DNA of 33,480 bases. It comes from Sedimentibacter hydroxybenzoicus DSM 7310 (GTDB lineage Bacteria; Bacillota; Clostridia; Tissierellales; Sedimentibacteraceae). Shown one piece after another: positions 2,490 to 31,887 of the stretch. The stretch lies in NCBI RefSeq assembly GCF_013403245.1, contig NZ_JACBNQ010000031.1, positions 1-33,480 of the forward strand, read 5' to 3'. Under the pieces are notes generated by a model. That model saw only the letters and a list, made by a program, of their open reading frames with translations. It was not told the DNA's origin and did not search any database. The translations under genes and the position numbers were made by a program. Every line of letters begins with the position of its first letter. The first letter of the stretch is position 1.

Positions 2490-4994
2490 ATGAGCAAAAA
2501 AATAGTTATTATAGGCGGTGTTGCAGGCGGTGCAAGCACAGCGGCAAGATTGAGAAGATTAGACGAAACATCAGAAATTATAATGTTTGAAAGAGGTTCA
2601 TATATTTCATATGCAAACTGCGGTTTGCCATACCATATAGGTGATGTGATAAAGGAAAGATTCTCTTTGCTGCTTCAAACGCCTGAGGCAATGTCAGAAA
2701 AATATAATGTTGACGTCAGAGTAGATTCTGAGGTTATTAGAATTGACAGAGAAAACAAAAGTGTTGAAGTTAAAAAAGCTAAAACGGGAGAAACATACAA
2801 GGAAAGCTATGATGTATTGGTAATATCAACAGGCTCAACTCCTTTGAAACCACCGATTGAGGGAATAAACTCACCCAATATTTTTACACTTTGGACCGTT
2901 CCCGATACTGATGAAATCAAAAGCTTTATAAATGAAAAACATCCAAAAAACGCAGTTGTAATCGGGGGTGGTTTCATTGGTCTTGAGGTTGCCGAAAACC
3001 TTCATCTTGCAGGCATAAATGTTACCGTTGCAGAAGCAATGGACCAGGTTATGGCACCCATAGATTATGAAATGGCAAGATTAGTGCAGGATAATATGGT
3101 ATTAAACGGAGTTAATCTTATTTTAGGTGATGGAGTATCAAAATTCAGCAGCGAAAACGGTACGGTCACAATTACCTTAGCAAGTGGGAAAGCTTTGACT
3201 GCTGATATGGTAATTTTATCAATAGGAGTCAGACCTAACAGCCAATTAGCTAAGGATGCAGGTCTTCAGCTAAATCAAAGGGGCGGAATTGTTGTAGATA
3301 AATATTTAAAAACATCCGATCCAAGTATTTATGCTCTTGGTGATGTAATAGAAGTAGAAGAATTCATAAACAAGGGTAAGGCAATGATTGCTCTGGCAGG
3401 TCCGGCCAACAAGCAGGGAAGAATATGTGCAAACAATATTTACGGAGCTAATGAAGAATACAAAGGAACAATGGGTACTTCTGTTGCAAAGGTATTTGAC
3501 TTAACGGTTGCTTCCACAGGAGCAAACGAAAAAACTCTTGACAGAATGGGTATGCTTGAAGGAAAGGACTATTACACTGCTACTATATCACAAAAATCCC
3601 ATGCGGGATATTATCCTGAGAGCACTGAATTAATACTCAAGATGGTTTTTTCCGTCGACGGCAAAAAAATATACGGAGCACAAATTGTTGGTGAGGACGG
3701 AGCTGACAAACGAATAGATACAATTGCAACTGCAATTCGTTTGGGAGGAAGCATTTATGATTTAAAGGAACTTGAACTTGCTTATGCTCCACCGTATTCA
3801 TCCGCTAAGGACCCCGTCAATATGTTAGGTTTCGTTGCGGAAAATATTATTAAAGGCAAAATAAAACTTAATAAATGGAACGACATAGAGCCGTCAAAAC
3901 CAAGCGATTATACATTACTTGATATCAGAGAGGAAGCAGAGCTTATGGTTTTTGAAATACCCGGTGCTGTTAATATTCCTTTAGGAGAACTAAGAGGCAG
4001 AATTAGCGAGCTGAACAAGAATGATAAAATAATCATATTTTGTGCTGTTGGTGTTCGTTCTTACAATGCCGCGAGGGCTTTGATGGAAAACGGATTTAAC
4101 AATGTGTATGTCTATCCTGCTGGAACAAACTTCTATAAGAGTGTTTATTATGATTATTACAATCAATTAAACGGCATGAATAGTACAGCTCTGGATATAA
4201 AAAATGCAAACAATATTTCAGAGGAAAAAAAAACGAATGAAATAAAAGCCTCCATACAGGTTGACTGCAGCGGACTTCAATGCCCCGGTCCCATTATGAA
4301 GGTTTATGAAATCATAAACAAAATCAATGATGGTGACATCATAAAAGTTTCGGCAACTGATTCAGGATTTTCACGAGATGTTGAATCCTGGTGCAGAAGG
4401 ACGGGAAATACCTTCATAAGAACAGAAAAGGAAGGCAAAAGTAATATTGTATATTTACAAAAGGGTGCATCTGAAAAAAAAACTAATAGTTTTTTACAAA
4501 ACTCGTCAATATTGACATCTTCAAATGACGGTAAAACAATTATTGTTTTCAGCGGTGACTTGGATAAGGTTTTAGCCTCATTTGTTATCGCCAACGGTGC
4601 TGCAGCAATGGGAAGACCGGTTACAATGTTCTTTACATTTTGGGGACTAAATGTTCTGAGGAAAACAGAAAAGCAAAATATTAAAAAACCGTTCATAGAT
4701 GCCATGTTCGGTAAAATGATGCCACAAGGTGTAAGTAAATTAAAGCTGTCAAAAATGAATATGGGTGGAATGGGAACAGCTATGATGAGAAAGGTAATGA
4801 AGGATAAAAATATAGATTCTCTTGAAGATTTAGTAAAAAAAGCAATGGATAACGGTGTTAAAATGATTGCCTGCACCATGTCAATGGATGTAATGGGAAT
4901 CACTGAAGAAGAATTGATTGATGGCGTGGAATTCGCCGGCGTAGGCACGTACTTAGGCGATGCGGAAGAATCCAACGTAAATCTGTTTATTTAA
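2490..4994 (+). CDS. CoA-disulfide reductase / rhodanese / TusA / DsrE four-module fusion
   Basis: 834 residues. Module 1 (about 1-445) is a flavin disulfide reductase: FAD motif IIGGVAGGASTAARLRR at 7-23, redox Cys44 in SYANCGLPY, NAD(P)-binding GGGFIGLEVAENL near 157-169, and a C-terminal dimerisation domain. This is the CoA-disulfide reductase/NADH oxidase/polysulfide reductase type with a single active Cys. Module 2 (about 460-550) is a rhodanese with Cys518 in the FCAVGVRS loop. Module 3 (about 590-665) is TusA-like with LQCPGP (Cys598). Module 4 (about 683-834) is DsrE-like, starting at IVFSGDLDK. Together the modules can accept, relay and reduce persulfide sulfur in the cytoplasm. Such fusions are known in clostridia; the physiological substrate here is not shown. 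The 3' end overlaps the convergent YgbA-like gene by 8 bp. Confidence 0.9.
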   Translation: MSKKIVIIGGVAGGASTAARLRRLDETSEIIMFERGSYISYANCGLPYHIGDVIKERFSLLLQTPEAMSEKYNVDVRVDSEVIRIDRENKSVEVKKAKTGETYKESYDVLVISTGSTPLKPPIEGINSPNIFTLWTVPDTDEIKSFINEKHPKNAVVIGGGFIGLEVAENLHLAGINVTVAEAMDQVMAPIDYEMARLVQDNMVLNGVNLILGDGVSKFSSENGTVTITLASGKALTADMVILSIGVRPNSQLAKDAGLQLNQRGGIVVDKYLKTSDPSIYALGDVIEVEEFINKGKAMIALAGPANKQGRICANNIYGANEEYKGTMGTSVAKVFDLTVASTGANEKTLDRMGMLEGKDYYTATISQKSHAGYYPESTELILKMVFSVDGKKIYGAQIVGEDGADKRIDTIATAIRLGGSIYDLKELELAYAPPYSSAKDPVNMLGFVAENIIKGKIKLNKWNDIEPSKPSDYTLLDIREEAELMVFEIPGAVNIPLGELRGRISELNKNDKIIIFCAVGVRSYNAARALMENGFNNVYVYPAGTNFYKSVYYDYYNQLNGMNSTALDIKNANNISEEKKTNEIKASIQVDCSGLQCPGPIMKVYEIINKINDGDIIKVSATDSGFSRDVESWCRRTGNTFIRTEKEGKSNIVYLQKGASEKKTNSFLQNSSILTSSNDGKTIIVFSGDLDKVLASFVIANGAAAMGRPVTMFFTFWGLNVLRKTEKQNIKKPFIDAMFGKMMPQGVSKLKLSKMNMGGMGTAMMRKVMKDKNIDSLEDLVKKAMDNGVKMIACTMSMDVMGITEEELIDGVEFAGVGTYLGDAEESNVNLFI

Positions 4995-5310
4995 GAAAAC
5001 TATATTGTTTTAGCGACTCTATAATATGTTTTATAACTGCTGCAGGATTTTTAAATAACATTCTGGGTCCGGAGTATTTCATAACCTCTTTGATTTTGAC
5101 TCTCATATCCGGTTTATAGCAATGCATAGGGCAGTTGCTGCAAAATCCTTTGTCTTCTCCAAACTTGCAGTTACTTAACCTTTTATGGGCATACTTCTTA
5201 AGCTCCCTGCATTTTTCGCAGGGAGTAAAAGCAGTATGCCTATTCCCTTTGCAATAAATTAAAATCATCTGATCTACTATGTATTTTTCTTTTTCTATTT
5301 TACTCTTCAC
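4987..5310 (-). CDS. YgbA-like Cys-rich protein (nitrous oxide-stimulated promoter family)
   Basis: 107 residues with seven cysteines at 20, 31, 34, 48, 57, 60 and 64, arranged as YC, CEKC, NC and CSNCPMHC, which suggests an Fe-S or zinc site. The pattern matches the YgbA/NO_stim family, which is small, cytoplasmic and linked to nitrosative stress in enterobacteria; its biochemical role is poorly defined. The start is GTG at 5308-5310, supported by a GGGGAGGGTG ribosome site just upstream. It converges on the CoA-disulfide reductase fusion, overlapping its 3' end by 8 bp, so each transcript is antisense to the other at the end. Family assignment is from the Cys pattern and length. Confidence 0.7.
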   Translation of the reverse strand: MKSKIEKEKYIVDQMILIYCKGNRHTAFTPCEKCRELKKYAHKRLSNCKFGEDKGFCSNCPMHCYKPDMRVKIKEVMKYSGPRMLFKNPAAVIKHIIESLKQYSFLK

Positions 5311-5524
5311 TATAACACCCTCCCCGTTTTATAAAGAAAAAAAGCTGTCTCCAAATTCCTATGGCAATAAAAGTTCCATATATTTTTATGGAACTTTTAT
5401 CATTTTCTTTTATCATGTAATATATACCCGCGCCGGTCAATAATATTCCAATTAATAAACTAAAGATCGTAAAAATTAATGGGTTCGTGGATAAGACAAT
5501 TTCGGAATTTGTAAATAAGGCTGT
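5300..5524 (-). pseudogene. Headless small membrane-protein ORF
   Basis: A minus-strand frame is open for 74 sense codons between a TAG at 5525-5527 and a TAA at 5300-5302, overlapping the YgbA-like start by 11 nt. The translation contains a clear transmembrane segment (FTIFSLLIGILLTGAGIYY), then a polar loop (MIKENDKSS) and a second hydrophobic stretch (IKIYGTFIAIGIW). It has no ATG, GTG or TTG at a sensible place: the frame runs straight into the hairpin that borders the 151-bp repeat. I read it as a small membrane-protein gene whose 5' end was lost or rearranged at that hairpin. It may be chance coding, but the amino acid pattern looks real. Confidence 0.35.
5367..5400. repeat. 14-bp perfect hairpin
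   Basis: ATAAAAGTTCCATA (5367-5380) pairs with TATGGAACTTTTAT (5387-5400) across a 6-nt loop. It lies inside the headless ORF. Neither side has a convincing T-run, so terminator function is doubtful. Confidence 0.5.
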
Positions 5525-5708
5525 CTATGCAGACAGCTCAGATTGATGACAAAGTCATCAAGATGATAGGCTGCTGAAAAAGTTCATCCTGCAAGGCGCC
5601 GGAAGACGGGCAACCGCAGCGTATTAGACATACGTGAGGATTGACCGGATGAACGGCAACGATGCAGGGGGACTTTTTCAGCAGCCTGAGCTGTCTATGC
5701 AGACAGCT
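5520..5708. mobile_element. 151-bp hairpin-nested repeat, copy A, with 19-bp hairpin duplication
   Basis: The core is 5539-5689 (151 bp). It is flanked by identical 19-bp direct repeats at 5520-5538 and 5690-5708. Each 19-mer is a full hairpin (GCTGTCT, loop ATGC, AGACAGC). The core begins with a small dyad (TTGATGAC AAA GTCATCAA). It then carries inverted repeats: AGGCTGCTGAAAAAGT at 5568-5583, extended imperfectly to 5592, against its complement ending at 5687. No coding capacity is apparent, so this resembles a MITE. It sits in the 3' region of the SHMT-like gene. Copy B is at 23660-23848 and a remnant is at 15437-15496. Confidence 0.75.
5690..5708 (-). terminator. Probable terminator hairpin of the catabolic operon
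   Basis: A 7-bp stem (GCTGTCT/AGACAGC) with a 4-nt loop, 27 bp downstream of the SHMT-like stop codon. The second copy at 5520-5538, beyond the inserted repeat, is followed on the minus strand by CTTATTT, which is likely the original T-rich exit. Confidence 0.5.
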
Positions 5709-5735
5709 TTATTATATAGAAGGGTATCATGAAAC

Positions 5736-6959
5736 CTAAAATGAATATTCTAAATTTGTAAAGCTTTTAGAAAATTCTCCAACATCCTTAGCGACATTCT
5801 CTATTGATTCCTTATCAATTAACAACCTTTTTATAAATAATGCTATTTGTTCCATATCTTTTTCTTTTAGTCCTTTTCTTGTTACCTCAGGTGTTCCGAC
5901 TCTTATTACAGGAGAAGCACCGGAAAAATCATCAGACACTAAGATATTGGCCTTTTCTAAATATTTTGCGGGAGATGTATCTATTTTATCTCCCAAATTC
6001 ACTAACAATAAGTGAGATTCAGTAAAGCCCTTATTTTTACCTATTACATTAAATCCATAGTTGTCTAATGCAACTGCTAATGCTTTAGAATTTTTAACAA
6101 TCTGTTTACCGTATTCTTTTCCGAATTCCTTCATCTCCAAAATAGACGCTGCAAGTGCCGGTAATCTGTTTAGATGATGGCTTGTTACCAATGATGGCGA
6201 AAGAGTATTTCCTACTTTTATTATTAGTTCCTTATCATTAGAAACTACAAATCCTCCCTGAGGACCGGGAAAAGATTTATGGGTACTTCCAAACATTATA
6301 TCTGCACCCTCTTCAAGGGGATTCTTAAATACGCCTGAGGCAATAAGTCCCGTAACATGAGCAGCATCATATGCAATATAAAAGCCAAGTTCATCGGCCA
6401 ATGGTCTTAACTCTCTCACCGGCTCCTGAAACAATGTTCCTGAACCGCCGAATATGACTAGTTTAGGTCTTAATTTTCTAACCTGAGTTTTTAATGATTC
6501 AACATCAACAGCACCATCTTCTGTGAATTTCATATACTCCACATTAATTGTCTCATCAAATTGCTTAACCTGGCACATTGGTCCGACTAACCCATGTCCC
6601 CAATCCTTTAAACTTACCTCAATTACTAAATCTCCCGGCTCAAGTATTGCCAGAACCACCGACATTCCTGCCATATGACCTCCAATTGGTCTTAAATCAG
6701 CATACTTTGCTTTAAAAATATCTTTTATCAACTCTTGTGTTTCCATTTCAAATTCGTGAATATACTTGTTACCCGTATATTCTCTATCTTTTGGATTTAG
6801 CGTTGAATAACATCCATATCTGTTTCCAAAATCGCAGCTTAGGTAATTTCTTACCTTTTCACTTGAATAATTCTCAGAAGCTATTAAATTTAAACAGCCT
6901 TGTCTATAAGTTAAATGTTTATTTAACAAATTATCTATGTCTCTTGTTGACTTAAACAT
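5736..6959 (-). CDS. Divergent serine hydroxymethyltransferase-like PLP enzyme (candidate aldolase)
   Basis: 407 residues, fold-type I PLP enzyme of the SHMT family (usual length ~415). Seen: LIASENYSS at the N-terminus with the conserved Glu, DAAHVTGLIASG around the PLP-contacting Asp/His, FGSTHKSFPGPQGG with the PLP lysine K228, and VIRVGTPEVTRKG near the C-terminus. It departs from housekeeping SHMT: the YYGGCEYVD segment is replaced by EYTGNKYIHEFE, and THKT is THKS. The family cleaves or forms beta-hydroxy-alpha-amino acids. Last gene of the island, 26 bp after the sulfur-carrier gene, with RBS GGGAGG. Inference: it cleaves a beta-hydroxy amino acid made by the operon, such as 3-hydroxy-2,4-diaminobutyrate. 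Ordinary glycine hydroxymethyltransferase remains possible. Confidence 0.8.
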   Translation of the reverse strand: MFKSTRDIDNLLNKHLTYRQGCLNLIASENYSSEKVRNYLSCDFGNRYGCYSTLNPKDREYTGNKYIHEFEMETQELIKDIFKAKYADLRPIGGHMAGMSVVLAILEPGDLVIEVSLKDWGHGLVGPMCQVKQFDETINVEYMKFTEDGAVDVESLKTQVRKLRPKLVIFGGSGTLFQEPVRELRPLADELGFYIAYDAAHVTGLIASGVFKNPLEEGADIMFGSTHKSFPGPQGGFVVSNDKELIIKVGNTLSPSLVTSHHLNRLPALAASILEMKEFGKEYGKQIVKNSKALAVALDNYGFNVIGKNKGFTESHLLLVNLGDKIDTSPAKYLEKANILVSDDFSGASPVIRVGTPEVTRKGLKEKDMEQIALFIKRLLIDKESIENVAKDVGEFSKSFTNLEYSF

Positions 6960-6985
6960 GTTCGTCCTCCCTAATTAGAAAATTA

Positions 6986-7183
6986 CTAACCTCCTCCTAA
7001 CGGTTTTATAATTCTGATATTATCATTTTTACTCAATTGATAATTCCCATATTGAGACATCAAAATTTGCTTGCCGTTTATAAATACCGCTACAGATTCA
7101 ATATAGTTTAAATGTTTTATTAAATTTGACACAGTATAATTATGAGGAACTGTCATTGTTTTGTTATTAACAATTACTTCCAC
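6986..7183 (-). CDS. ThiS/MoaD-like sulfur carrier linked to the aldehyde oxidoreductase
   Basis: 65 residues, beta-grasp ubiquitin-like fold, ending in the exposed tail PLGGG that is activated to a thiocarboxylate. The start is GTG at 7181-7183. The ribosome site AGGCGGTGA overlaps the TGA stop of the aldehyde oxidoreductase gene, so the two are translationally coupled. Length and tail fit both ThiS (thiazole) and MoaD (molybdopterin). No thiamin gene is nearby, while the gene follows an AOR-family gene directly, which is a known arrangement for pterin-cofactor enzymes. I therefore infer that it supplies dithiolene sulfur for the tungstopterin of that enzyme. Confidence 0.75.
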   Translation of the reverse strand: MEVIVNNKTMTVPHNYTVSNLIKHLNYIESVAVFINGKQILMSQYGNYQLSKNDNIRIIKPLGGG

Positions 7184-7187
7184 AAAA

Positions 7188-9089
7188 TCACCGCCTATTA
7201 ATTAACCATTGCAAAGATAATTTCCTCATTGTTGACACCGTAGGATTACCATTATCGGAATGCCATCCGGCTAATTCATAATATAACTCCTTGGCTTTTT
7301 CATGAGCCTCTTTATCTAATACAACACCGTCTGTTGGTCCTCCTTTTAAAGGTATAAATATTTTTTCAGGCAACTGGTCATCATCTTTTGTAAATCCTTC
7401 TCTTGAATTAAAATAACGCATCATGTTAATACGTCTTTCTCCTACTTGCATCAGTTCGAATATTGAAGTATCCCATCCTAAACCATACTTGCAAAGTTCA
7501 ACCATTTCATCCGGTCCATAAAGCTCCCAGGCAGGACCCCATACAAATTGACACAAACACAATGTATCTAATATTGAGAAGTATTTTTGTGTGTCTAAAG
7601 CAAAACGAACTTTGTCATCGTCCATTGTAAAGTTATCTTCATAACCCTTATGTATGCCTATTTTCGCCAATCTTATTCTTTCTCTGCTGTCGGTTGGCAT
7701 TACAAGGAAAGGATCATGCTCACTTGATTGATGGTCTGCACCAAAAGGATTAACAGCATATATTAATCCTACTGCAGGTTTGAATTGAGGCATATGTGCA
7801 GGTAATTCCTGTTTTTTTACTGTTACGGTAAGTAAGACAGCTTCCTTGCCTATTTTCTCTGCAGCTCTATAACTGCCTTCGGCTAATAAATCACCGATTC
7901 CTTCCCTCTTGGCAATTTTCTCAATTAGTATAGGCAATGCTTTTTCATTGCCGAAGTCCAGTTTTATTCCATCACATGCTTCTTCATCCAATAAACCTTT
8001 TTCATAGCATTCCATTGCAAATGCAATAGTCGCACCACATGAAATAGTATCAACTCCATACATGTTACAAAGTTGATTAGCTAATGATACATATTCAAGG
8101 TCTGTCACTCCACAATAAGAACCAAAAGTTCCAACCGTTTCATATTCAGGTCCCCCATATAGAGGATCAACCAATCCGGGTACCTCAACAACTCTTTTAC
8201 ACCTTACTGCACAAGCAAAACATGTATCTCTTTCTTTTAGTATCGTGTCATACATCGTAGTTCCGGTTAATTTTTCAGCTCCCTCAGGAAAATATCCTGA
8301 TGTCCAGTTTCTGGTGACTAAGAATCCTTCATCGCTGAAGCCTTCTAAATCTCCGTCCGTTCCATATTGACCTAATCCGGCTACAGCCTCGTTTTCTTTT
8401 AACCTTTGTGTAACGCTTTTAGCAAGCTCCATAAATTTTTCTTTATTATATGGTTTAATCGGCTTACCCTTAACTACTACAACTGCCTTTAAGTTCTTCG
8501 AACCCATTACGGCTCCCATACCATTTCTGCCATTAGCTCGATTGCACATATTGATTATACATGCATATTTAACGATATTTTCTCCACCCGGACCTATTTG
8601 AGCTATTTCCACATCATCCCTGTTCAGTTCTTTACGTATTATATCTTCAGCTTCGCCTGTAACCTTTCCCCAGATATTTTCAGCACTTCTTAACTCAAAC
8701 TTGTCTCCATCTACAAATAAATAAACCGGTTTATCTGATTTTCCATTAAAAACTATTGCATCGTATCCATTGGCTTTAAGATGGGCCGGGAAAAATCCTC
8801 CTGCTTGACTGTCTCCTATTGTTCCCGTTAATGGACTTTTTGCAGTTACATTTAATCTGCTGATACCACTTATAGGAAGACCGGTTAAAGCTGAAACGGA
8901 GAAAACCAAAGTATTTTCAGGGGACAATGGATCAATACCTGATTTCATTTTATTTAATGCTAAATATAAACCCAAACTTGAGCCGCCCGGATATAATCTG
9001 TAGATTTCGCCGGGAAGTATATCTATTTTTGTTTCTCCTTTTGTAAGGTCGACCTTTAATATTTTAGCATCAGGAAATTGATTATACAT
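7188..9089 (-). CDS. Aldehyde ferredoxin oxidoreductase family protein (tungstopterin, 4Fe-4S)
   Basis: 633 residues, full AOR length. The family oxidises aldehydes to carboxylates and reduces ferredoxin, using a bis-pterin tungsten (rarely molybdenum) centre. Seen: N-terminal AOR domain with LPGEIYRLYPGGSSLGLYLA, and the pterin-contact region ANGRNGMGAVMGSKNLKAV near residues 180-200. The 4Fe-4S ligands are C290-FA-C293-AVR-C297, with a distal Cys in LDTLCLC (C511/C513), spaced as in archaeal AOR. The start at 9089 has AAAAGGAGG 7 nt upstream. It follows the TRAP binding-protein gene and is coupled to a ThiS/MoaD-like gene. The substrate is unknown; in this operon an amino-aldehyde derived from the imported solute is a reasonable inference. 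Confidence 0.9.
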   Translation of the reverse strand: MYNQFPDAKILKVDLTKGETKIDILPGEIYRLYPGGSSLGLYLALNKMKSGIDPLSPENTLVFSVSALTGLPISGISRLNVTAKSPLTGTIGDSQAGGFFPAHLKANGYDAIVFNGKSDKPVYLFVDGDKFELRSAENIWGKVTGEAEDIIRKELNRDDVEIAQIGPGGENIVKYACIINMCNRANGRNGMGAVMGSKNLKAVVVVKGKPIKPYNKEKFMELAKSVTQRLKENEAVAGLGQYGTDGDLEGFSDEGFLVTRNWTSGYFPEGAEKLTGTTMYDTILKERDTCFACAVRCKRVVEVPGLVDPLYGGPEYETVGTFGSYCGVTDLEYVSLANQLCNMYGVDTISCGATIAFAMECYEKGLLDEEACDGIKLDFGNEKALPILIEKIAKREGIGDLLAEGSYRAAEKIGKEAVLLTVTVKKQELPAHMPQFKPAVGLIYAVNPFGADHQSSEHDPFLVMPTDSRERIRLAKIGIHKGYEDNFTMDDDKVRFALDTQKYFSILDTLCLCQFVWGPAWELYGPDEMVELCKYGLGWDTSIFELMQVGERRINMMRYFNSREGFTKDDDQLPEKIFIPLKGGPTDGVVLDKEAHEKAKELYYELAGWHSDNGNPTVSTMRKLSLQWLINRR

Positions 9090-9110
9090 TCATATGCCTC
9101 CTTTTAAAGC

Positions 9111-9135
9111 TTAAGGGGAATATTATTCCCCTTAA
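9111..9135. repeat. Intra-operon hairpin between TRAP binding protein and AOR genes
   Basis: An 11-bp perfect stem (TTAAGGGGAAT / ATTCCCCTTAA) with a 3-nt loop, 12 bp downstream of the dctP stop. The minus strand beyond it reads AAGCTTTAAAAGGAGG with no proper T-run. It is therefore more likely an mRNA stabiliser or partial terminator that raises binding-protein levels over downstream genes. Confidence 0.65.
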
Positions 9136-9146
9136 ATTTTATGTTT

Positions 9147-10193
9147 TTATTTTTCAATTTCAGCTATTTCAGCCATCAATTTATCTAATATAGCGGCACC
9201 TTTAGCTCCTACCATATTTTTATATACATCGTATGCTGACTTGCTGGCTTCTTTAAATAATTCTCTTTCTTCTTGAGTTAATGTTACAATTTCTATATCG
9301 CTTGCTGCTTTTATTTTATCTAATGCTCCTCCATTCAAATCTGCTTGAGCCTGGAATGAGAAATCTCTTGTTTCTTCAACAGTTTCTAAAATCATTTTTT
9401 GTATATCTGCAGGTAAACTGTCAAAGAATTTAGGATTTACTGCAGTAGTCGTTACATAAAGACTTGAACTTCCTAATGTTAAATACTTCTGAACTTCATA
9501 GAACTTCATTTCTTCTATAGCCGATAATGGATTTTCTTGTCCTTCTATCATATTTAGCTGAAGTCCGCTGTAAACTTCCATATATGGCATTGGAGTCGGA
9601 TTTGCTCCATATGCTTCATAAGATGCAACTATCATTGGAGACGGCATAGTTCTCATCTTTAGTCCCTTCCACAATTCAGGTCTGTTTACAGGCTTAGATG
9701 TTGTCCATTCCATTGTGCCCTCTGTCCAGTATGATAAAACTTTTATATTTTTATCTGCATAAATCGCTGTTAAATCTTCATTTAATGCTTTACTGTTTTT
9801 GAATATTTCTTTATTTTTGTCCATATCTTCCGAGAATAAGAAGTGTAAAGAGAATAATTGATTTTCAGGTACTATGGTTCCTGTATTTCCGGGTGATACC
9901 ATAGCAAATTCCAGTCCTCCGTTTTGTAATAATTCACATTGTTGAGTTGCATCACCAATTTGACCTACCGGATATATATCGATATTGATTTTCCCGCCGG
10001 ATTTTTCTTCAAGTATTCTTACAAATTCTTTTACATATACATCCTGTATACTTCCGTTATTTTCTTCATGAGCAAATCTCCAGTTATATGTTTCTCCTGC
10101 GTCAGGCGACGGTGTAGCCGATTGTTGACCACAACCAACAAATAATGTCATTACCAATAATACAGATACTGCTAATAATATAGATTTTTTCAT
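9147..10193 (-). CDS. dctP: TRAP transporter substrate-binding lipoprotein, TeaA/UehA-like
   Basis: 348 residues. Signal peptide of about 20 residues with lipobox LFVGC (Cys21), so it is a membrane-anchored extracellular lipoprotein. The mature start YNWRFAHEE, and later SPGNTG, SKALNE, KGLKMRTMPSP, YGANPTPMPYMEVYSGLQ and EGQENP, follow the DctP fold. They also match closely, as far as I recall that sequence, the Halomonas ectoine-binding protein TeaA (NWRYAHEE..., IRTM..., GQENP). The Glu of AHEE, the Arg of MRTM and the Asn of GQENP are the expected ligand contacts. It is encoded between an M20 hydrolase and AOR, with DctQ/DctM upstream in the same operon. Ligand assignment to ectoine/hydroxyectoine is inference supported by the DoeA-like gene. 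Confidence 0.88.
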   Translation of the reverse strand: MKKSILLAVSVLLVMTLFVGCGQQSATPSPDAGETYNWRFAHEENNGSIQDVYVKEFVRILEEKSGGKINIDIYPVGQIGDATQQCELLQNGGLEFAMVSPGNTGTIVPENQLFSLHFLFSEDMDKNKEIFKNSKALNEDLTAIYADKNIKVLSYWTEGTMEWTTSKPVNRPELWKGLKMRTMPSPMIVASYEAYGANPTPMPYMEVYSGLQLNMIEGQENPLSAIEEMKFYEVQKYLTLGSSSLYVTTTAVNPKFFDSLPADIQKMILETVEETRDFSFQAQADLNGGALDKIKAASDIEIVTLTQEERELFKEASKSAYDVYKNMVGAKGAAILDKLMAEIAEIEK

Positions 10194-10212
10194 CTTTTAA
10201 ATCCTCCTGATA

Positions 10213-11391
10213 TTAATCATTTAAATAATTTAATGTTGATCTTACATGCATCTCTACTCCATATTTCAGAGTATCTTCATCTATGGAAAACCTTGGATGA
10301 TGATGAGGATACATGGTTTCTTTTAATTCATTACCATTTCCTATAAAATAAAATGCACTTGGAACCCTTTGTGAGAATTCAGCAAAATCTTCTCCTGCCA
10401 TACATCTGTACTCTTCAATGTTTTCATCAGTTCCATATGTCTCTGTTAGCGCATTTCTTATGTATGAAACCATTCTTGCATTGTTTTGTAATGATGGATT
10501 GCTTGGAATAAACTTCAAATCATACTTAACATTCATTGCTTCACATATACCATTTATCACCCTTCCAAACTTTTCTAATAATGCTTTCTTTTCAACTTCT
10601 TCATTTTTAAATAGAAATCTTATAGTACCTCCGATTTCAACCTTTTGGGCAATTATATTTCTTCCTGTGCCGCCATTTATTTTACCTATCATTATTGTTA
10701 TAGGATTTAATGGATCTATTTCTCTTGTTTGTATTGATTGTATAGTCTGGATAATATTAGATGAAGCTATTATCGGATCTAAAGCAGTGTGTGGTGAGCC
10801 GGTATGACCGGGTTTCCCGTATATCTCTAACTCAAACTCTTCTAACGCTGCCATAACCGGTCCTTCTGATAATCCAACCACTCCGCTTTTTAGAGGGGTC
10901 CAAAGATGTATACCGAAAGCTGCATCGACTTTTGGATCTTCTAAAACACCTTCATTAATCATATCCAATGCCCCGGCTTCCTCTTCGTTCGGTTGAAACA
11001 CAAATTTTACATTTCCGTTTATATTATCCTTATATTTGCACAAAATTTTTGCTGCTATTAACAGCATGGCAGTATGTCCGTCGTGACCACATGCATGCAT
11101 AATACCTTTATTTACAGATTTAAAAGGAACTTCTGCTTCTTCATTTTGAGGCAATGCATCAATGTCTGCTCTTAGCATTACAGTCTTACCCGATTGTTTC
11201 CCTCTTAATAAACCTACTACTCCTGTCTTAGCAACCTTTTTTACCTCTAACCCAAGCAAATTCAGATAGTCGTATACAATTTGTGAGGTTCTGTATTCTT
11301 CATATCCTAATTCGGGATGCATATGAAAATCTCTTCTGAGGGCTATCAGTTCCTCTTCCAATTCAAAAATATCTTTTTTTATATCATTCAT
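10213..11391 (-). CDS. M20-family amidohydrolase, candidate N-acetyl-diaminobutyrate deacetylase
   Basis: 392 residues, M20D (hippurate hydrolase/amidohydrolase) type, cytoplasmic. Seen: RRDFHMHPELGYEEYRTS at 19-36, metal and catalytic residues in HACGHDGHT (Cys101, His103, His106), the catalytic Glu pair in QPNEEEAG (~136-140), the GKPGHTGSPH dimerisation-domain His, and a C-terminal metal His in HHHPRF. The family removes acyl groups from amino acids and small amides. It starts 14 bp after dctM. In ectoine catabolism the product of the DoeA step is acetyl-diaminobutyrate; from memory an M20-type deacetylase (DoeB2) has been annotated as an alternative to the AspA-type DoeB. That role is inferred here. 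A general N-acyl amino acid hydrolase is the alternative. Confidence 0.85.
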   Translation of the reverse strand: MNDIKKDIFELEEELIALRRDFHMHPELGYEEYRTSQIVYDYLNLLGLEVKKVAKTGVVGLLRGKQSGKTVMLRADIDALPQNEEAEVPFKSVNKGIMHACGHDGHTAMLLIAAKILCKYKDNINGNVKFVFQPNEEEAGALDMINEGVLEDPKVDAAFGIHLWTPLKSGVVGLSEGPVMAALEEFELEIYGKPGHTGSPHTALDPIIASSNIIQTIQSIQTREIDPLNPITIMIGKINGGTGRNIIAQKVEIGGTIRFLFKNEEVEKKALLEKFGRVINGICEAMNVKYDLKFIPSNPSLQNNARMVSYIRNALTETYGTDENIEEYRCMAGEDFAEFSQRVPSAFYFIGNGNELKETMYPHHHPRFSIDEDTLKYGVEMHVRSTLNYLND

Positions 11392-11405
11392 AATTCATGT
11401 CCTCT

Positions 11406-12671
11406 CTATATTAAAAGCAAAGATACCTGAGGCACAAATATAATAATCACAGATATAATTATAAGCATAATCAAATATGCAGGTAACCTTTTGACCACCA
11501 TTAAAAATGGTCTGTCAAAAATTGCACATGCTGTGAAAATATTGCATCCGAACGGCGGGCTTATAGATGCGAGTGCAGCCTGTAATGTAACAATAATTCC
11601 AAGATGTATGGGATGTATCCCTGCCTGTACCGCCAATGGGAAAAATATCGGAGTAAGTATTACAATAGCCACAATTGAATCCACAAACATACCTGCTATA
11701 TAGAAAAATATAGTAACTGTTATTAATATCTTAAGTGCAGTCGGATTTACCCCAAGAACTGCCTGTGTTATCATTTGAGGTATTCTTGCATAGGATATCG
11801 CCCAAGAAAATAAGCTTCCTGCTGCCACTAATATAAATACCGCTGTTGTCACAACAGCTGTTGATAAAGCTATATTTCTAAAGTCCTTAAACTTAATTGA
11901 TTTAAATAAAAATACTTCTAATAAGGTTGCATATAATACTCCCATTGCAGCTGCTTCCGTAGGACTGAATTTACCGGAATATATACCTGCAAAAATTATT
12001 ATAGGGAAGCCTAATGGTCCGATTGCTTTTTTTAATGCAGCCACCTTTCCGTTTAAATCAATTTTTTTCGTTCTTTGAATACCTTTTTTCTTAGCTCTAA
12101 AAAAATTATATAAAGAGAAGAAAAATAATATTATTAATCCCGGAATTATTCCCGCTTTGAAGAGATCCCCTACGGATGCTCCGGTAACTACACAATACAT
12201 AATCATTGATATGCTTGGTGGAATTAGCAATGCAATGATAGCTGAACTAATTATAAGAGCAGTGGTATCTTCATCCTCATATCCGCTGCTTATCAATCTG
12301 TTTCTCATAGGTTTCCCGATTGCAACAACCGTCGCTTGTGTTGAACCCGATATGGCACCAAATATTGTACAGGTTGCCGCAGTCGTAATAGCCATACCTC
12401 CATGTATGTGCCCAACGAAAGTATCTACAAAGTCTAACAGCCTGTTTGATGTCTGACCCGCACACATAATATCTGCTGCAAATATAAACATCGGAACAGA
12501 CAATAAAACGATTGGCTGAACTCCGGCTATCAATTGTTGAGTTGCTAAAAGAGGATTAATATTTGGGAAATATGTTAAAATTACAGCCAAAGGTGCTACT
12601 ATCATTGCTATGTACATAGGAAAGTTTAAAATAAACAATACGGCCATTATTAGCATAAGCATCCATACCAT
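11406..12671 (-). CDS. dctM: TRAP transporter large permease
   Basis: 421 residues, almost entirely hydrophobic, with about 11-12 transmembrane segments as expected for DctM. Seen: an N-terminal MVWMLMLIMAVLFILNFPMY helix, GAISGSTQATVVAIGKPM, and SPTEAAAMGVLYA, a hallmark of the family. It forms the sodium-driven translocation channel with DctQ and receives solute from the binding protein encoded two genes downstream. Start ATG at 12671 with an AAGGAGGAATC ribosome site; it starts 1 bp after the dctQ stop, so the two permease subunits are coupled. Confidence 0.92.
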   Translation of the reverse strand: MVWMLMLIMAVLFILNFPMYIAMIVAPLAVILTYFPNINPLLATQQLIAGVQPIVLLSVPMFIFAADIMCAGQTSNRLLDFVDTFVGHIHGGMAITTAATCTIFGAISGSTQATVVAIGKPMRNRLISSGYEDEDTTALIISSAIIALLIPPSISMIMYCVVTGASVGDLFKAGIIPGLIILFFFSLYNFFRAKKKGIQRTKKIDLNGKVAALKKAIGPLGFPIIIFAGIYSGKFSPTEAAAMGVLYATLLEVFLFKSIKFKDFRNIALSTAVVTTAVFILVAAGSLFSWAISYARIPQMITQAVLGVNPTALKILITVTIFFYIAGMFVDSIVAIVILTPIFFPLAVQAGIHPIHLGIIVTLQAALASISPPFGCNIFTACAIFDRPFLMVVKRLPAYLIMLIIISVIIIFVPQVSLLLI

Positions 12672-12672
12672 G

Positions 12673-13251
12673 TTATGATTCCTCCTTTTCTTCTTCCAAT
12701 TTATCGATTAAATTAGATAAATCTGTTTTTACTTCAAGATTCAAAGGAACTCTTATATCGCTTGTTAAGTAAAAATTATCTTTATCCGTAATATTAAAAA
12801 TAAATGATCTGATATATTCTATCGTTGCCAATAAAAAACCTAAAGGAACAACTGAATAAATCATATAGATTGGAATTTGCAATGCCGGTGTAACTCTGCC
12901 AAGGCTTTGAACACTGATTATATATCTTGCGGCCAAAAATGTTATATAAGCGGTGGCTAAAGCAGAAACAAAAGAAATTACAATCATAAATAATTTCTTA
13001 TATTTATTGCTTACCATGTCAAATACTATTGACATAGTAATATGTCTGCCTTTTCTTGCACAATAACCAAGACCGAAGAATGACACTAATATCAATAAAG
13101 CTGATGCAACCTCTTCAGAAAATGTTAAGCTTTTATTCATAACATTTCTCATAAAAACACCAACTATTAATAAAATTGCCATTAATATTACAGAGTAGCT
13201 TAGAACAAATTCTTCAAATCGTGATAATGTCTTAGTAAAAAACTTATTCAT
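12673..13251 (-). CDS. dctQ: TRAP transporter small permease
   Basis: 192 residues with four predicted transmembrane segments (about 15-35, 48-68, 88-110, 128-150) and the DctQ pattern SLTFSEEVASALLILVSFFG. A charged, acidic cytoplasmic C-terminus (DKLEEEKEES) follows. It is the membrane partner that organises the DctM/DctP interaction. It is the second gene of the solute-catabolism operon after doeA, separated by 66 bp that carry a 15-bp-stem hairpin. Confidence 0.9.
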   Translation of the reverse strand: MNKFFTKTLSRFEEFVLSYSVILMAILLIVGVFMRNVMNKSLTFSEEVASALLILVSFFGLGYCARKGRHITMSIVFDMVSNKYKKLFMIVISFVSALATAYITFLAARYIISVQSLGRVTPALQIPIYMIYSVVPLGFLLATIEYIRSFIFNITDKDNFYLTSDIRVPLNLEVKTDLSNLIDKLEEEKEES

Positions 13252-13276
13252 AAATTTTCCTCTTTCTATAATAGTT

Positions 13277-13310
13277 TGTACGTATCAAAGCATAAGCTTT
13301 GATACGTACA
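13277..13310. repeat. 15-bp perfect hairpin between doeA and dctQ
   Basis: TGTACGTATCAAAGC (13277-13291) pairs perfectly with 13296-13310 across a 4-nt loop. The minus-strand downstream sequence has no T-run, so it probably acts on mRNA processing or stability, separating doeA from the transporter genes, rather than as a full terminator. Confidence 0.65.
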
Positions 13311-13317
13311 CTAATTA

Positions 13318-14493
13318 TTATTTCACCAGTAACTTTCTTGGATAGTTTGTCAACAATTCAACTCCCGTTTCTGTGATCCTAATTGGTTCACTTATATCGA
13401 CACCGCAATCATCAAGCCATATACCGGGCATAAAATGAAGAGTCATATTTGGTTTTAGAATAGTCTTATCACCAGGTCTTAAGCTGACAGTATGCTCACC
13501 CCAATCCGGAGGGTAGTTAAGTCCAAATGAATAGCCAACGCGTGAATCCTTTATAAATCCACTCTTGGCAATGCTTTTAGCCCATGTTCTTTCTATATCC
13601 TCACACGTAATACCCGGTTTAATAATTTCAAGTGTAGCTTTTATACCCTCAACTACAACTTCAGATAAATCTTTAACTCTTTGTGGTGCATTTCCTAATA
13701 TTATTGTTCTTGATAATGGGCAATGATATCTTCTGTAATTTCCCGCAATTTCCACAAGTACTGTATCTCCGTCCCTATACGGCTCATCTGTCCAGCTTAA
13801 ATGAGGAGTTGAAGTTCTTATTCCACTCGGCATGAGCGGAACTATAGATGCATAATCGCCGCCATACTCTTCAGTACCATATATCTGAGCATGATAAACG
13901 TTTGCGGCTGCTTCATTTTGCCTTACACCCACATTAATAGACTCAAAAGCAACTTGCATTGTTCTTTCAACTATTACAGCAGCTTTTTTTATGTATTCTA
14001 TTTCTTTATCGGATTTTATAATCTTCACCCAATTGACAATGTTGTTTCCATCTGCAAATCTTGCATTAGGTAAGTCATTAACTAAAGTTTCCTGGCATTT
14101 AGCTGTAAAGTAATAAGCATCCATTTCTGTAGCTATAACCTTATTATCGTATCCCTTTTCTTTTAAAATGTCGGACACAAAATCCATTGGATGCTTTATC
14201 AATGAATGAACATAATCATCCGTATATGGTCGGATATTTTCTTCTGAAAGCCATGATGTTAATTTTGCTGCATTACCATCTTGTCCTCTTCCAACCCATA
14301 TCGGTTCCTCCCGGTCAATCATCACAATTAAGCATTGATGCACATAAAATGACCATCCGTCAAATCCGGAAAGATAATTCATATTTGCCGGATCTGTCAC
14401 TATTAAGACCTCAATACCTTTTTCCTCCATACTTAATTTTGTGTTTTTAATCCTTTGTTTGTACTCCGCAACATCAAAATACAACGATTTCAT
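13318..14493 (-). CDS. doeA: Ectoine hydrolase-like M24-family enzyme (DoeA/EutD type)
   Basis: 391 residues, creatinase/aminopeptidase-P pita-bread fold: N-terminal creatinase domain (~1-150), C-terminal M24 catalytic domain. DoeA opens the pyrimidine ring of ectoine (or hydroxyectoine) to acetyl-diaminobutyrate. DoeA-type stretches, compared from memory, are SGFDGWSFYVHQ near residue 47, VNWVKIIKS, EYGGDYASIVPLMPSG, EIAGNYRRYHCPLSRT with Glu248 (the expected catalytic Glu), and a C-terminal run with YPPDWGEHTVSLRPGDKT and FMPGIWLDDCG. These separate it from prolidases and creatinase. Start ATG at 14493 with GGGAGG 8 nt upstream. First gene of the operon, right behind the palindrome TTGTCGACAA. 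Confidence in the subfamily is good; ectoine versus hydroxyectoine preference cannot be read from sequence. Confidence 0.85.
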   Translation of the reverse strand: MKSLYFDVAEYKQRIKNTKLSMEEKGIEVLIVTDPANMNYLSGFDGWSFYVHQCLIVMIDREEPIWVGRGQDGNAAKLTSWLSEENIRPYTDDYVHSLIKHPMDFVSDILKEKGYDNKVIATEMDAYYFTAKCQETLVNDLPNARFADGNNIVNWVKIIKSDKEIEYIKKAAVIVERTMQVAFESINVGVRQNEAAANVYHAQIYGTEEYGGDYASIVPLMPSGIRTSTPHLSWTDEPYRDGDTVLVEIAGNYRRYHCPLSRTIILGNAPQRVKDLSEVVVEGIKATLEIIKPGITCEDIERTWAKSIAKSGFIKDSRVGYSFGLNYPPDWGEHTVSLRPGDKTILKPNMTLHFMPGIWLDDCGVDISEPIRITETGVELLTNYPRKLLVK

Positions 14494-14531
14494 TAATGCA
14501 ACCTCCCTTTATTATAATACCATATTGTCGT

Positions 14532-14541
14532 TTGTCGACAA
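14532..14541. promoter_or_regulatory. Predicted GntR operator in the doeA promoter
   Basis: The perfect palindrome TTGTCGACAA, with a second half-site ATTGTCG at 14524-14530, lies 38 bp upstream of the doeA start. On the minus strand TTGTCG (14536-14541) is followed 16 nt later by TATTAT, so the site probably covers the -35 box. The same palindrome occurs in the regulator's own promoter. Confidence 0.65.
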
Positions 14542-14574
14542 GCTTGATTATTTTAATATCTTATATATAGCAAT

Positions 14575-15252
14575 TTATTTAAATATACCGTCTTTATAAG
14601 AAATGATATGTCCCCTCAGTGCATTTTTACATCTATCTATATCCTTGCTACGTAAGCTTTCAATAATTTCATAATGATCTGTTGCCGACATAATCAAATC
14701 ACCGGTCTTTAACATATCATACAGCATAGCTATTCTTAATTGAAAAAACATACTTTCTAATATTTTAACTCTTCTCTGACTACCGGATTTCTTCCATATA
14801 AACCTATGAAAATCCATATCCTTTTTATTAATTAATAAGGACTTTTTATTATCATCTATTGATGATTCTGCGATACTAACCATATCTTTAACAATTTGTT
14901 CTAAATGATTAAAATCATCTTCTGTAAGTTTATTTTCATAAATTAAAATTTTATTAATATTGTTTTCGAGCAATAATCTGATATCAAATACCTCCTTGAT
15001 ATCATCTAAGCTGTATTCGGTTACATATGTTCCCTTTCGAGGCAAAGTAGTGAGAATACCATCATTTTCAAGTTCTCTTATCGCTTCTCTGATCGGGGCT
15101 CTGCTTATACCTAATTTATTAGCTACTTCGCTTTCATTTATATGGTCACCAACTTTATATTCCCCGCTTAGTATCGCTTCCTTAATATAATCAACTACTA
15201 CACTATTAAGATTTTCTCTTCTACTTAAATAAGCCTGTACATCAGCTAACAT
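14575..15252 (-). CDS. GntR-family (FadR/FCD) transcriptional regulator
   Basis: 225 residues from the chosen start: N-terminal winged helix (about 10-75, with ESEVANKLGISRAPIREAIRELENDGIL) and a C-terminal all-helical FCD ligand domain (about 85-220) with Asp/His candidates for a metal site (DFHRF, DHYEII). The start is ATG at 15250-15252, because TTGGAGG ends 6 nt before it; an upstream in-frame ATG at 15276 has no ribosome site and would place it before that Shine-Dalgarno. It is encoded directly upstream of doeA in the same direction. It most likely binds TTGTCGACAA in both promoters and responds to the imported solute or a breakdown product. It is not the MocR-type EnuR regulator known from proteobacterial ectoine clusters. 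Confidence 0.88.
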   Translation of the reverse strand: MLADVQAYLSRRENLNSVVVDYIKEAILSGEYKVGDHINESEVANKLGISRAPIREAIRELENDGILTTLPRKGTYVTEYSLDDIKEVFDIRLLLENNINKILIYENKLTEDDFNHLEQIVKDMVSIAESSIDDNKKSLLINKKDMDFHRFIWKKSGSQRRVKILESMFFQLRIAMLYDMLKTGDLIMSATDHYEIIESLRSKDIDRCKNALRGHIISYKDGIFK

Positions 15253-15306
15253 CATTAACCTCCAACTAAAATGCATAATATAGAACCGTTATCATACATT
15301 TAGATA

Positions 15307-15335
15307 ATTATACCACATCAATTGTCGACAATCAA
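15307..15335 (-). promoter_or_regulatory. Promoter and operator of the GntR regulator
   Basis: On the minus strand TTGATT (complement of 15330-15335), a 17-nt spacer, then TATAAT (complement of 15307-15312). The dyad ATTGTCGACAAT at 15321-15332 lies in the spacer and touches the -35 box, so a bound dimer would block polymerase. This is the arrangement for negative autoregulation. Confidence 0.75.
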
Positions 15336-15436: not shown

Positions 15437-15496
15437 CTGTTAAGACAGCTTAGATTGATGACAAAGTCATCAAGATTGTAGGCTGTTAAGACAGCT
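15437..15496. repeat. Remnant of the 151-bp hairpin-nested repeat (locus C)
   Basis: Two copies of CTGTTAAGACAGCT (15437-15450 and 15483-15496), each a small hairpin, flank 32 bp. Those 32 bp match the left end of copies A and B (GATTGATGACAAAGTCATCAAGAT, given here only to identify positions 15453-15476, then TAGG). The rest of the element is missing. The junction TAGGCTGTTAAGAC looks like recombination over GCTGTT, shared by the element's left inverted repeat and its flank. Confidence 0.65.
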
Positions 15497-19612: not shown

Positions 19613-20290
19613 CTAAATGAAAACACTTTCATTTATATTTAATATTTCCACATTGGATAATTTTACTTTGTTTTTAAATTCTTCCGGATTTGCTTTAATT
19701 AAATCAAATGTATTATAATGGAACGGAATAACCGTTTTCGGCTTAATGAAATCTACTGCTTTAACTGCATCGTTAATATCCATGGTATAATTCCCGCCTA
19801 TAGGCAAGAAAGCTACATCTATGTTTTCATCTTCTAATAATTTCATGTCAAGTGTAAGTCCTGTATCTCCTGCATGATATACCTTATTACCGCTTATATG
19901 TATTATAAATCCGCCGGGGTTACCGCCGTATATCATATTGCCGTTGTCAGATATACCTGAACCGTGCAATGCGTTGGTCATTTTTACAATACCAAAATCA
20001 AATTTCGTTCGTCCTCCGATATGCATTGCATGTATTTTTATATTAAATTTACTAAGATATGCGGAGATCTCAGCATTTGCTATAACTAAAGCTCCACTTC
20101 GCTTAGCTATGTCAACAGTATCTCCTATATGATCGCCATGTCCGTGTGTTACAAAAATATGAGTAACATCCGATAATTCATCCAAATTAATATTTGCAAG
20201 TGGATTTCCTGATATAAACGGGTCTATAATACCCTTAAATTTTCCCTCTTCAATTATTACAGCCGAGTGTCCTAAATAAGTAAGTTTCAT
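19613..20290 (-). CDS. MBL-fold metal-dependent hydrolase, UPF0173 family
   Basis: 225 residues from ATG at 20288-20290 (a GTG 9 nt upstream is in frame but sits only 2 nt from AAAGGA). Metallo-beta-lactamase fold with the zinc motif [10 protein letters not shown] near residue 48, later metal ligands AGDT and the His of IPFHYNTFD, starting [13 protein letters not shown] as in UPF0173/YtkL proteins. It is cytoplasmic; the substrate of this family is not established. It lies 39 bp downstream of livF on the same strand, so it may be cotranscribed with the transporter, but a functional tie is unproven. Confidence 0.88.
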
Positions 20291-20329
20291 TTCAGCCACC
20301 GTCCTTTCAATTTTAACTATATAATAACT

Positions 20330-22729: not shown

Positions 22730-22738
22730 GATAACCTC

Positions 22739-23623: not shown

Positions 23624-23659
23624 TTGTTCCTCCTATTGCAGGTGGTTTATTCAACTAAA

Positions 23660-23848: not shown

Positions 23849-23882
23849 TCAGTTTATACCTAAACCTCCAAGATGAAAAATA

Positions 23883-30727: not shown

Positions 30728-30757
30728 TATATTCCTCTCTAAAATAATGTCTTGACT

Positions 30758-31753: not shown

Positions 31754-31887
31754 AATTACCTCCAAATCAAATATAAAATACATAAAATAATTGCAACTTG
31801 TTTAAATATTACTTTTGTTGTATAATTAATTATGTTAACACATAATTGTTCAACACGCAATAAAAAATTATAAACATTTAAAAAAAG
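31754..31887. other. arcA-arcB intergenic region
   Basis: 134 bp, about 80% AT, between two codirectional genes. It contains TGTATAATTAATTATG and TTAACACATAATTG, which could hold a secondary promoter or an ArgR-type site, but no match is good enough to call. No terminator is visible, so arcA and arcB are probably cotranscribed. Confidence 0.3.

Follow-up and report, generated by a model that had tools for sequence, protein, structure and literature searches.

How might a strictly anaerobic bacterium break down an ectoine if the enzymes that follow the hydrolase in the known pathways are missing from its operon? This question is raised by a nine-gene run in Sedimentibacter hydroxybenzoicus DSM 7310, located on a 33,480-nt stretch of DNA (contig NZ_JACBNQ010000031.1, positions 1–33,480; hereafter the window) that corresponds to contig C25 of a 3.8-Mb genome of 99% completeness. 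All nine genes lie on the minus strand at positions 5736–15276, in the order gntR-doeA-dctQ-dctM-M20-dctP-AOR-thiS-SHMT-like (AOR, aldehyde:ferredoxin oxidoreductase; SHMT, serine hydroxymethyltransferase), with successive intergenic gaps of 81, 66, 1, 14, 19, 57, 4, and 26 nt. A first-pass annotation made from the sequence alone had described this run as a tightly spaced, DoeA-type ectoine catabolic operon of an anaerobic Firmicute, with an unusual enzyme set under a GntR regulator of the FCD type; this description holds, with gaps of 1–81 nt and family calls on which Pfam and NCBIfam agree. This is a real, conserved operon, best read as serving a hydroxyectoine fermentation that includes a retro-aldol step and probably yields glycine.

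In the scheme that we favor, and which we judge to have a reasonably good chance of being correct, the operon imports and ferments 5-hydroxyectoine by retro-aldol cleavage, deacetylation coming before this cleavage or possibly after it. The tripartite ATP-independent periplasmic (TRAP) transporter DctPQM would import 5-hydroxyectoine, DoeA would open its ring to give N-acetyl-hydroxydiaminobutyrate, and the M20 protein would take off acetate to release (2S,3S)-2,4-diamino-3-hydroxybutyrate (hydroxy-DABA). By our own derivation, (4S,5S)-hydroxyectoine should give rise to this (2S,3S) product of the allo series. Hydroxy-DABA is a β-hydroxy-α-amino acid of L-allo-threonine configuration; SHMT-fold enzymes need no folate to cleave such compounds, and the SHMT-like pyridoxal 5′-phosphate (PLP) enzyme would accordingly split it into glycine and aminoacetaldehyde. 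AOR, probably with ThiS as its sulfur carrier, would then oxidize aminoacetaldehyde to a second glycine while reducing ferredoxin—a part that an aldehyde dehydrogenase may play in a relative where no AOR was found. The net reaction would be C6H10N2O3 + 3 H2O → acetate + 2 glycine + 2 [H], with both glycines entering the cell's glycine reductase. Hydroxy-DABA has been detected at a low level as an intermediate in Ruegeria cells on hydroxyectoine (PMC8739950).

The proposed cleavage falls to the last gene of the run (5736–6959, minus strand), which encodes the SHMT-like PLP enzyme, a putative folate-independent hydroxy-DABA aldolase. All 13 orthologs lack the EGxP stretch containing Glu57 (E. 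coli numbering) and carry RYGCY, seven residues, and REY in its place; equally, 13/13 lack the folate loop NKNxxP...VTSG[IVL]R, instead having a shorter loop with an invariant SDDFSG. Both elements, which presumably serve the folate reaction of SHMT, are kept in 15/15 GlyA-family paralogs from the same and other genomes. The SHMT-like protein retains the PLP lysine and equivalents of Asp200, His203, His126, and Arg363. With its PLP lysine and substrate residues in place and no folate site, it fits an SHMT-fold aldolase by sequence, and on Glu57, the folate loop, and the curated score it falls outside the folate-dependent SHMTs: SHMT model NF000586 gives it 307 bits (cut-off 335) and the fluorothreonine transaldolase model 212 (cut-off 650), as compared to 657 and 119 for the GlyA of the same genome (scores with models are those of Pfam and NCBIfam profiles, and cut-offs are the models' curated ones). 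An SHMT that has lost this glutamate no longer carries out its folate-dependent reaction but still performs aldol cleavage; SHMT-fold transaldolases and aldolases cleave β-hydroxy-amino acids folate-free, and SHMT-fold enzymes prefer L-allo-threonine.

Its nearest relatives in the PDB are SHMT 4bhd/4uqv (280 bits), followed almost level by threonine aldolase 7k34 (166) and SHMT 3gbx (165). The SHMT-like protein shares the SHMT fold and PLP with L-threonine transaldolases and threonine aldolase (7k34, fluorothreonine transaldolase model) and with archaeal SHMT (4bhd); the Glu57 stretch is changed in 7k34 too, whereas 4bhd keeps EGxP. It differs from both in that the SHMT-like proteins form a clade of their own (support 99/97), have their own SDDFSG loop, and are tied to the DoeA operon. 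An AlphaFold2 model built from four sequences had a mean predicted local distance difference test score of 69, with the active-site stretches below 50, and was not used.

What the cleavage releases is suggested by the neighboring genes. AOR (7188–9089, minus strand) is a full-length family member by sequence, with AFOR_N and AFOR_C domains and a CxxCxxxC motif (CFACAVRC) plus distal cysteine for the cluster. It scores 398–313 bits with the AORs 1aor, 9mqx, and 9g7j, from which it differs as an operon-type subfamily: identity of the window's AOR is 64–86% to those of related loci, as against 34–39% to three paralogs (G000, G099, G103) and 29% to one in G255. In G047 (locus L013), the AOR-thiS slot between dctP and the SHMT-like gene holds a 468-residue aldehyde dehydrogenase instead, whose best-scoring model is betaine-aldehyde dehydrogenase (425 bits, cut-off 669), the aminobutyraldehyde dehydrogenase subfamily giving 384 (cut-off 615). 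A search of 14 genomes for AFOR_C (PF01314) gave at least one match in 12 and none in G047 or G102. That two unrelated aldehyde-oxidizing enzymes share one slot argues that the cleavage product is an aldehyde, and we regard this as our best evidence.

The gene between AOR and the SHMT-like gene, thiS (6986–7183, minus strand), encodes a ThiS/MoaD-type sulfur carrier of 65 residues ending in GGG, which may serve the pterin cofactor of AOR. It adjoins the operon AOR in 8/9 AOR-bearing loci (the window, L014, L016, L018, L098, L099, L102, and L103). G103 has no AOR beside its cluster; its AOR, 64% identical to that of the window, is encoded elsewhere in the genome, as is a ThiS-like protein. As read by eye, the SHMT-like gene of G232 is followed by genes resembling those for a tungstate-type ABC transporter, moeA, moaA, and moaC.

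The upper part of the scheme rests on DoeA (13318–14493, minus strand), an M24-fold protein that the first-pass annotation had likened to EutD. It scores 519 bits with the ectoine hydrolase model TIGR02993 (cut-off 613) and 221 with DoeA_2, against 111 for the best prolidase model; among solved chains, DoeA (6twk) gives 395 bits and the best prolidase 107. The EutD-type stretches E-[IL]-x-G...YHxP and PPDWGE are kept where prolidases differ (EIAG...RYHxPxSRT and YPPDWGE in the window's protein), and at these active-site positions prolidases presumably carry metal ligands. In a maximum-likelihood tree of open reading frames with at least 330 aligned residues (a limit that left out, for example, both pieces in L038), the protein groups with EutD-type proteins and falls into a 13-row clade A (support 100/99), apart from other DoeA kinds and from those of Bacilli and Proteobacteria. 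Profile scores, chain scores, and tree together rule out a prolidase or creatinase. We conclude that the kinship of the M24 protein with EutD/DoeA is genuine, and predict that it hydrolyzes ectoine or hydroxyectoine.

Downstream of doeA, the run encodes the small and large TRAP permeases DctQ (12673–13251; PF04290, 88.6 bits) and DctM (11406–12671; PF06808, 347.5 bits), an M20 amidohydrolase with the motifs CGHDGH and NEEEA that is a putative N-acetyl deacetylase (10213–11391), and the solute-binding lipoprotein DctP (9147–10193), all on the minus strand. In an alignment of DctP with TeaA, read by eye, the equivalents of Glu9, Arg144, and Asn184 are kept and three aromatic positions differ, with N replacing F66 and Y replacing both W167 and F209, all six being positions that we take to contact the ligand in the TeaA pocket. 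The suggested resemblance to TeaA is borne out by the nearest solved chains, namely 4pfi (226 bits), 3gyy (222), 2vpn (220), and 3fxb (206), of which 2VPN is TeaA and 3fxb is UehA (PMC5924519); it does not extend to the three aromatic positions.

The first-pass annotation had proposed a search for the same gene order in other anaerobes, and we found it in other genera and families. All nine genes occur together in Peptoclostridium litorale DSM 5388 (L018) and in L014, L016, L098, and L099, while L012 holds eight of the nine, all but thiS. gntR orthologs of 51–74% identity precede doeA in related loci. Gudongella (L017 and L102, the same locus, with identical proteins counted once) has gntR-doeA-AOR-thiS-SHMT without adjoining TRAP and M20 genes, and an Oscillospiraceae locus (L020) reads gntR-doeA-M20-SHMT-dctQMP, its ThiS-like gene and the AOR of 64% identity lying on a different contig. 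In G232 the operon comes in two pieces that both stop at contig ends, and in G084 it is split inside M20 over two places on one contig (L015:12564–13334 and L103:5343–10462). Such recurrence with the same members argues that the gene order is not due to chance. The second part of the G084 operon (the end of M20, dctP, AOR, thiS, and SHMT) lies about 0.7 Mb off, close to genes that by eye look phage-like, an arrangement such as an inversion or insertion would leave.

The SHMT-like gene also tracks a particular kind of DoeA. Across 249 genomes of the order, it was found in 10 (E ≤ 1e-100) and DoeA in 15, and the same 10/249 genomes carry both the SHMT-like gene and a clade-A DoeA (74–100% identity); as the genomes are related, these counts are not independent trials. 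Five genomes of the order (G160, G195, G198, G238, and G245) have only a DoeA of 53–57% identity and no SHMT-like gene, and G239 carries both DoeA kinds. In a class-wide sample of 392 genomes, the SHMT-like gene was present in three and DoeA in four, both together in G000 and G047; G464 and G488 have a DoeA of 51–54% only, and G326 the SHMT-like gene only.

The other DoeA kinds keep different company. In other Clostridia (L093–L095), a DoeA of 56–57% identity lies near a methionine-gamma-lyase-like or Cys/Met-type PLP enzyme, as does an unplaced DoeA of 51% in L132; the enzyme in L094 (L094:3400-10716) scores 482 bits with a methionine gamma-lyase subfamily model, the counterparts in L093, L095, and L132 being read by eye. 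Ectoine could be degraded anaerobically in yet another way if diaminobutyrate underwent gamma-elimination to 2-oxobutyrate. A third kind (53%; L131:4153–12154, L096, L097) is accompanied by a different TRAP set, an M20 protein, and a PRK07475-family protein (scanned in L096); by eye, L131 also has threonine-dehydratase-like and RidA-like genes, an EutA/EutB-like arrangement in Clostridia. Finally, a Clostridia bin (L028:4866–20206) combines an EutA-like gene (149.5 bits, cut-off 318), M20, TRAP genes, and DoeA with, a few genes on, a diaminopropionate ammonia-lyase (635 bits) and two peptidase- or deacylase-like genes seen by eye.

Would the cell be equipped to use the glycine? Contig 15 of the window's genome carries grdE/G-, grdB-, grdA-, grdC-, and grdD-type genes together with genes for a thioredoxin reductase and a thioredoxin-like protein, and contig 27 has a betaine-type B-subunit copy (633 bits). 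The grdB- and grdA-type genes contain an in-frame TGA, presumably as expected for selenocysteine. The B subunit on contig 15, read only to its in-frame TGA, scores 561 bits as glycine-type and 555 as sarcosine-type, both below cut-off. Within a set of 13 genomes (G230, G232, G255, and G326 being outside it), the GrdB family (PF07355) was matched in 9/9 with and 0/4 without the SHMT-like gene, a count that stands without a background rate, partly reflects shared ancestry, and comes from a model that cannot tell glycine from betaine or sarcosine reductase. That strict anaerobes possess a dedicated route from 5-hydroxyectoine to two glycines, via a folate-free SHMT paralog and a tungsten AOR or aldehyde dehydrogenase and feeding selenoprotein glycine reductase in Stickland fashion, is a proposal toward which the balance tips only slightly.

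As to regulation, the first gene (14575–15276, minus strand) encodes a GntR-family protein (64 bits) with an FCD domain (49.5 bits), whose start may lie a few codons downstream. Upstream of it, the palindrome ATTGTCGACAAT (15321–15332, minus strand) overlaps the end of the first hexamer of a predicted gntR promoter (TTGATT 15335–15330, 17 nt, TATAAT 15312–15307). A second putative operator, TTGTCGACAA (14532–14541, minus strand), followed by a CGACAA half-site (14530–14525), covers the first hexamer of a predicted doeA promoter (TCGACA from 14538, 16 nt, TATAAT ending at 14511; with 11/12 consensus matches the top-scoring of the region's 35 predicted sites). The promoter scan returned 35 promoter-like sites against 47.5 in shuffled sequences; with fewer sites than in shuffles, the scan itself is no evidence, and only the overlap with the operators supports the promoters. 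In each of the whole genomes G000, G255, and G047, the 12-mer ATTGTCGACAAT has a single copy, which lies upstream of gntR, as compared to 2, 0, and 1 copies of the reversed control. Copies of the core TGTCGACA lie upstream of gntR in 9/12 loci (L016, which lacks this region, being scored as a miss) and in the gntR-doeA spacer in 10/12, with no exact copy in L020; elsewhere in the 220,969 bases of the 12 loci the core occurs twice, both times in L018 and once just before dctP. This pattern suggests that the GntR/FCD protein may repress its own promoter and the operon, acting at the gntR and doeA promoters by way of TTGTCGACAA, a palindrome overlapping each promoter's –35 hexamer.

Besides the limits of the glycine reductase and promoter data just given, several observations speak against the hydroxyectoine-to-glycine scheme. 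Aminoacetaldehyde is reactive, and we know of no AOR that prefers it. L012 has only 28 nt between its AOR and SHMT reading frames and no thiS; as thiS is missing along with AOR in the aldehyde dehydrogenase variant L013 but also in L012, its tie to AOR is only a tendency. G326 has an orphan SHMT-like gene (L130:13290–14552, 73% identity) and no DoeA match; the gene may be a leftover, or the enzyme may have a different function there. The G102 bin (L019) has a clade-A DoeA and no match to the SHMT-like protein, AOR, or GrdB, on a contig that ends inside the operon, after dctP. The M20 family call stands, but the CpsA model (412 bits, cut-off 500) scores above the DoeB2 model NF038260 (277, cut-off 550) and both stay below cut-off, such that the protein falls outside DoeB2 by curated score and is not clearly a DoeB2. 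Ruegeria seems to convert hydroxy-DABA quickly to DABA (PMC8739950). In P. litorale, an EutA-like gene directly follows the operon (L018:19340–20083; 157 bits, cut-off 318; arylmalonate decarboxylase, 147), and an EutB-like or threonine-dehydratase-like gene (L018:160–1401; 264 bits, cut-off 413) lies about 8 kb before it; together they hint at a second, EutABC-like use of hydroxyectoine in that organism.

The alternative closest to our scheme changes merely the order of its steps: the SHMT-like enzyme would cleave N-γ-acetyl-hydroxy-DABA to glycine and N-acetylaminoacetaldehyde, AOR would form N-acetylglycine, and M20 would act last to release acetate and glycine. This would suit an M20 protein that DoeB2 describes less well than general amidohydrolase and CpsA-like models do, the acetylated aldehyde should be less reactive, and DoeA of Halomonas elongata gave α- and γ-acetyl isomers at 2:1 from ectoine (PMC5924519). 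However, EutD is reported to yield α-acetyl isomers from both ectoine and hydroxyectoine (PMC8739950), and an α-acetylated amino group cannot form the PLP aldimine, so we accord this order a minor share of the probability. A slightly smaller share goes to ectoine itself being degraded to aspartate, AOR replacing DoeC on aspartate semialdehyde, a transaminase encoded elsewhere in the genome, and the SHMT-like enzyme in a side role. In known systems, both ectoines are indeed handled by DoeA/EutD and TeaA/UehA (PMC5924519, PMC8739950), and the genome of the window encodes two class-III aminotransferases (PF00202), which leaves room for an ectoine route there. The operon has no DoeD-type aminotransferase or DoeC-type dehydrogenase, DoeC having been searched for in the operon and not genome-wide. 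In G255, a single contig of 98% completeness whose DoeA, AOR, and SHMT-like proteins are 85–88% identical to those of the window, PF00202 had no match, with other aminotransferase classes not searched. EutB (TIGR02991) exceeded its cut-off in 0/13 genomes, EutA and EutC not having been searched genome-wide; best EutB-like scores were 46 bits in G000, 39 in G255, 264 in P. litorale, 252 in G103, and 235 in G013. With no PF00202 match and nothing EutB-like above 39 bits, the DoeD route looks closed in G255, a closure that, given the PF00202 genes of the window's genome, holds for this relative only. The EutB and PF00202 searches thus lend the DoeD/DoeC route no support, and aspartate formation leaves both the SHMT-like gene and its absence where only other DoeA kinds occur unexplained. 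Accordingly, the first-pass suggestion that AOR, ThiS, and the SHMT-like enzyme stand in for DoeD and DoeC gives way to a different lower pathway, which the evidence fits better and which is sensible only for hydroxyectoine.

We further considered that a repurposed DoeA might act on a non-ectoine N-acyl or cyclic amidine derivative of a β-hydroxy-amino acid. The three changed aromatic positions of DctP, the separate branch formed by DoeA clade A, and DoeA and M20 scores below the curated cut-offs of ectoine models would accord with such a substrate, but clade A keeps the EutD-type motifs and the solved binding proteins closest to DctP include TeaA and UehA, making this reading improbable. Least credible of all is that the SHMT-like enzyme is an ordinary hydroxymethyltransferase present in the operon by chance: its fold family and PLP residues would allow it, and against it stand the Glu57 stretch and folate loop missing from every ortholog and the tie of these orthologs to DoeA clade A. 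A role as housekeeping GlyA is ruled out by the lost folate features and by another GlyA-family gene in 9/9 SHMT-like genomes examined for one. In two of them, G047 and G099, this additional gene falls into a four-member side group with TTTK or STTK replacing THK at the PLP lysine, which renders its housekeeping role unsure in these two genomes.

The retro-aldol scheme shares its first steps with ectoine catabolism in Ruegeria and Halomonas (EutD/DoeA, EutE/DoeB, Atf/DoeD, Ssd/DoeC, EutABC, EnuR, UehABC/TeaABC), namely a EutD-type hydrolase, a TRAP importer of the TeaA/UehA kind, and a deacetylase-type enzyme. Unlike those systems, the window operon has no DoeC, DoeD, EutB, EutC, EnuR, or AsnC gene—in keeping with the first-pass observation that the run lacks DoeC, DoeD, and EnuR- or DoeX-like regulators—and its M20 protein scores below DoeB2; it has instead the SHMT-like enzyme, AOR, ThiS, and an FCD-type regulator with its own putative palindromic operator. 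Putative ectoine clusters of Gram-positive bacteria (pucR-eutBCD-atf, abgB-thrA-adh) were described in 2026 for Bacilli and Clostridia (PMC13188858). They have in common with the window operon a EutD in Firmicutes, a putative amidohydrolase (abgB), and an aldehyde dehydrogenase, and unlike it carry eutB, eutC, and atf together with PucR; the words ferredoxin, hydroxymethyl, aldolase, and Peptoclostridium are absent from the main text of that paper. Judged by title, opening of the abstract, or word counts, the open-access papers among the matches listed contained no description of this gene set or of a hydroxyectoine aldolase route, and we found no account of ectoine fermentation. The earlier claim of an undescribed anaerobic compatible-solute catabolism needs narrowing: putative clostridial ectoine clusters are already in print, while the present route was not found described.

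Two strong hairpins lie within the run, one of 15 pairs between doeA and dctQ (13277–13310) and one of 11 pairs between dctP and AOR (9111–9135), each possibly an attenuator or mRNA-processing element; terminator-like sites in the region number 19, as compared to 5.4 in shuffles. Stem-loops at 5520–5537, 5688–5709, and 15481–15496, on either side of the operon, share a related arm (AGACAGC-like) and may represent a small repeat element. The operon is flanked by feoA and feoB upstream and ygbA downstream. Adjoining YgbA (4987–5310), positions 2490–4994 encode an 834-residue fusion of pyridine nucleotide-disulfide oxidoreductase, rhodanese, TusA, and DsrE. Elsewhere, the window contains a DDE transposase domain near the contig start (321–1049), a branched-chain amino-acid-type ABC transporter set with a metallo-beta-lactamase-fold protein (19613–25049), a 1439-residue CoA-enzyme-activase-type protein (25390–29709; BcrAD_BadFG and DUF2229), and consecutive genes of the amino-acid kinase, aspartate/ornithine carbamoyltransferase, and arginine deiminase families (29777–33111), which together look like a cluster for the arginine deiminase pathway.

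Few salt-stress solutes are produced as widely as ectoines (PMC13342039), and even in aerobes the activities of EutABC on the hydroxyl group of hydroxyectoine are stated to be uncertain (PMC8739950). If our scheme is true, its retro-aldol route would bypass this uncertain hydroxyl-handling step, would account for the presence of a sulfur carrier and an AOR next to an ectoine hydrolase, and would add a new aldolase for β-hydroxy-diamino acids. It would also link an osmolyte to glycine reductase and hence to the formation of acetate and ammonia in anoxic saline places.

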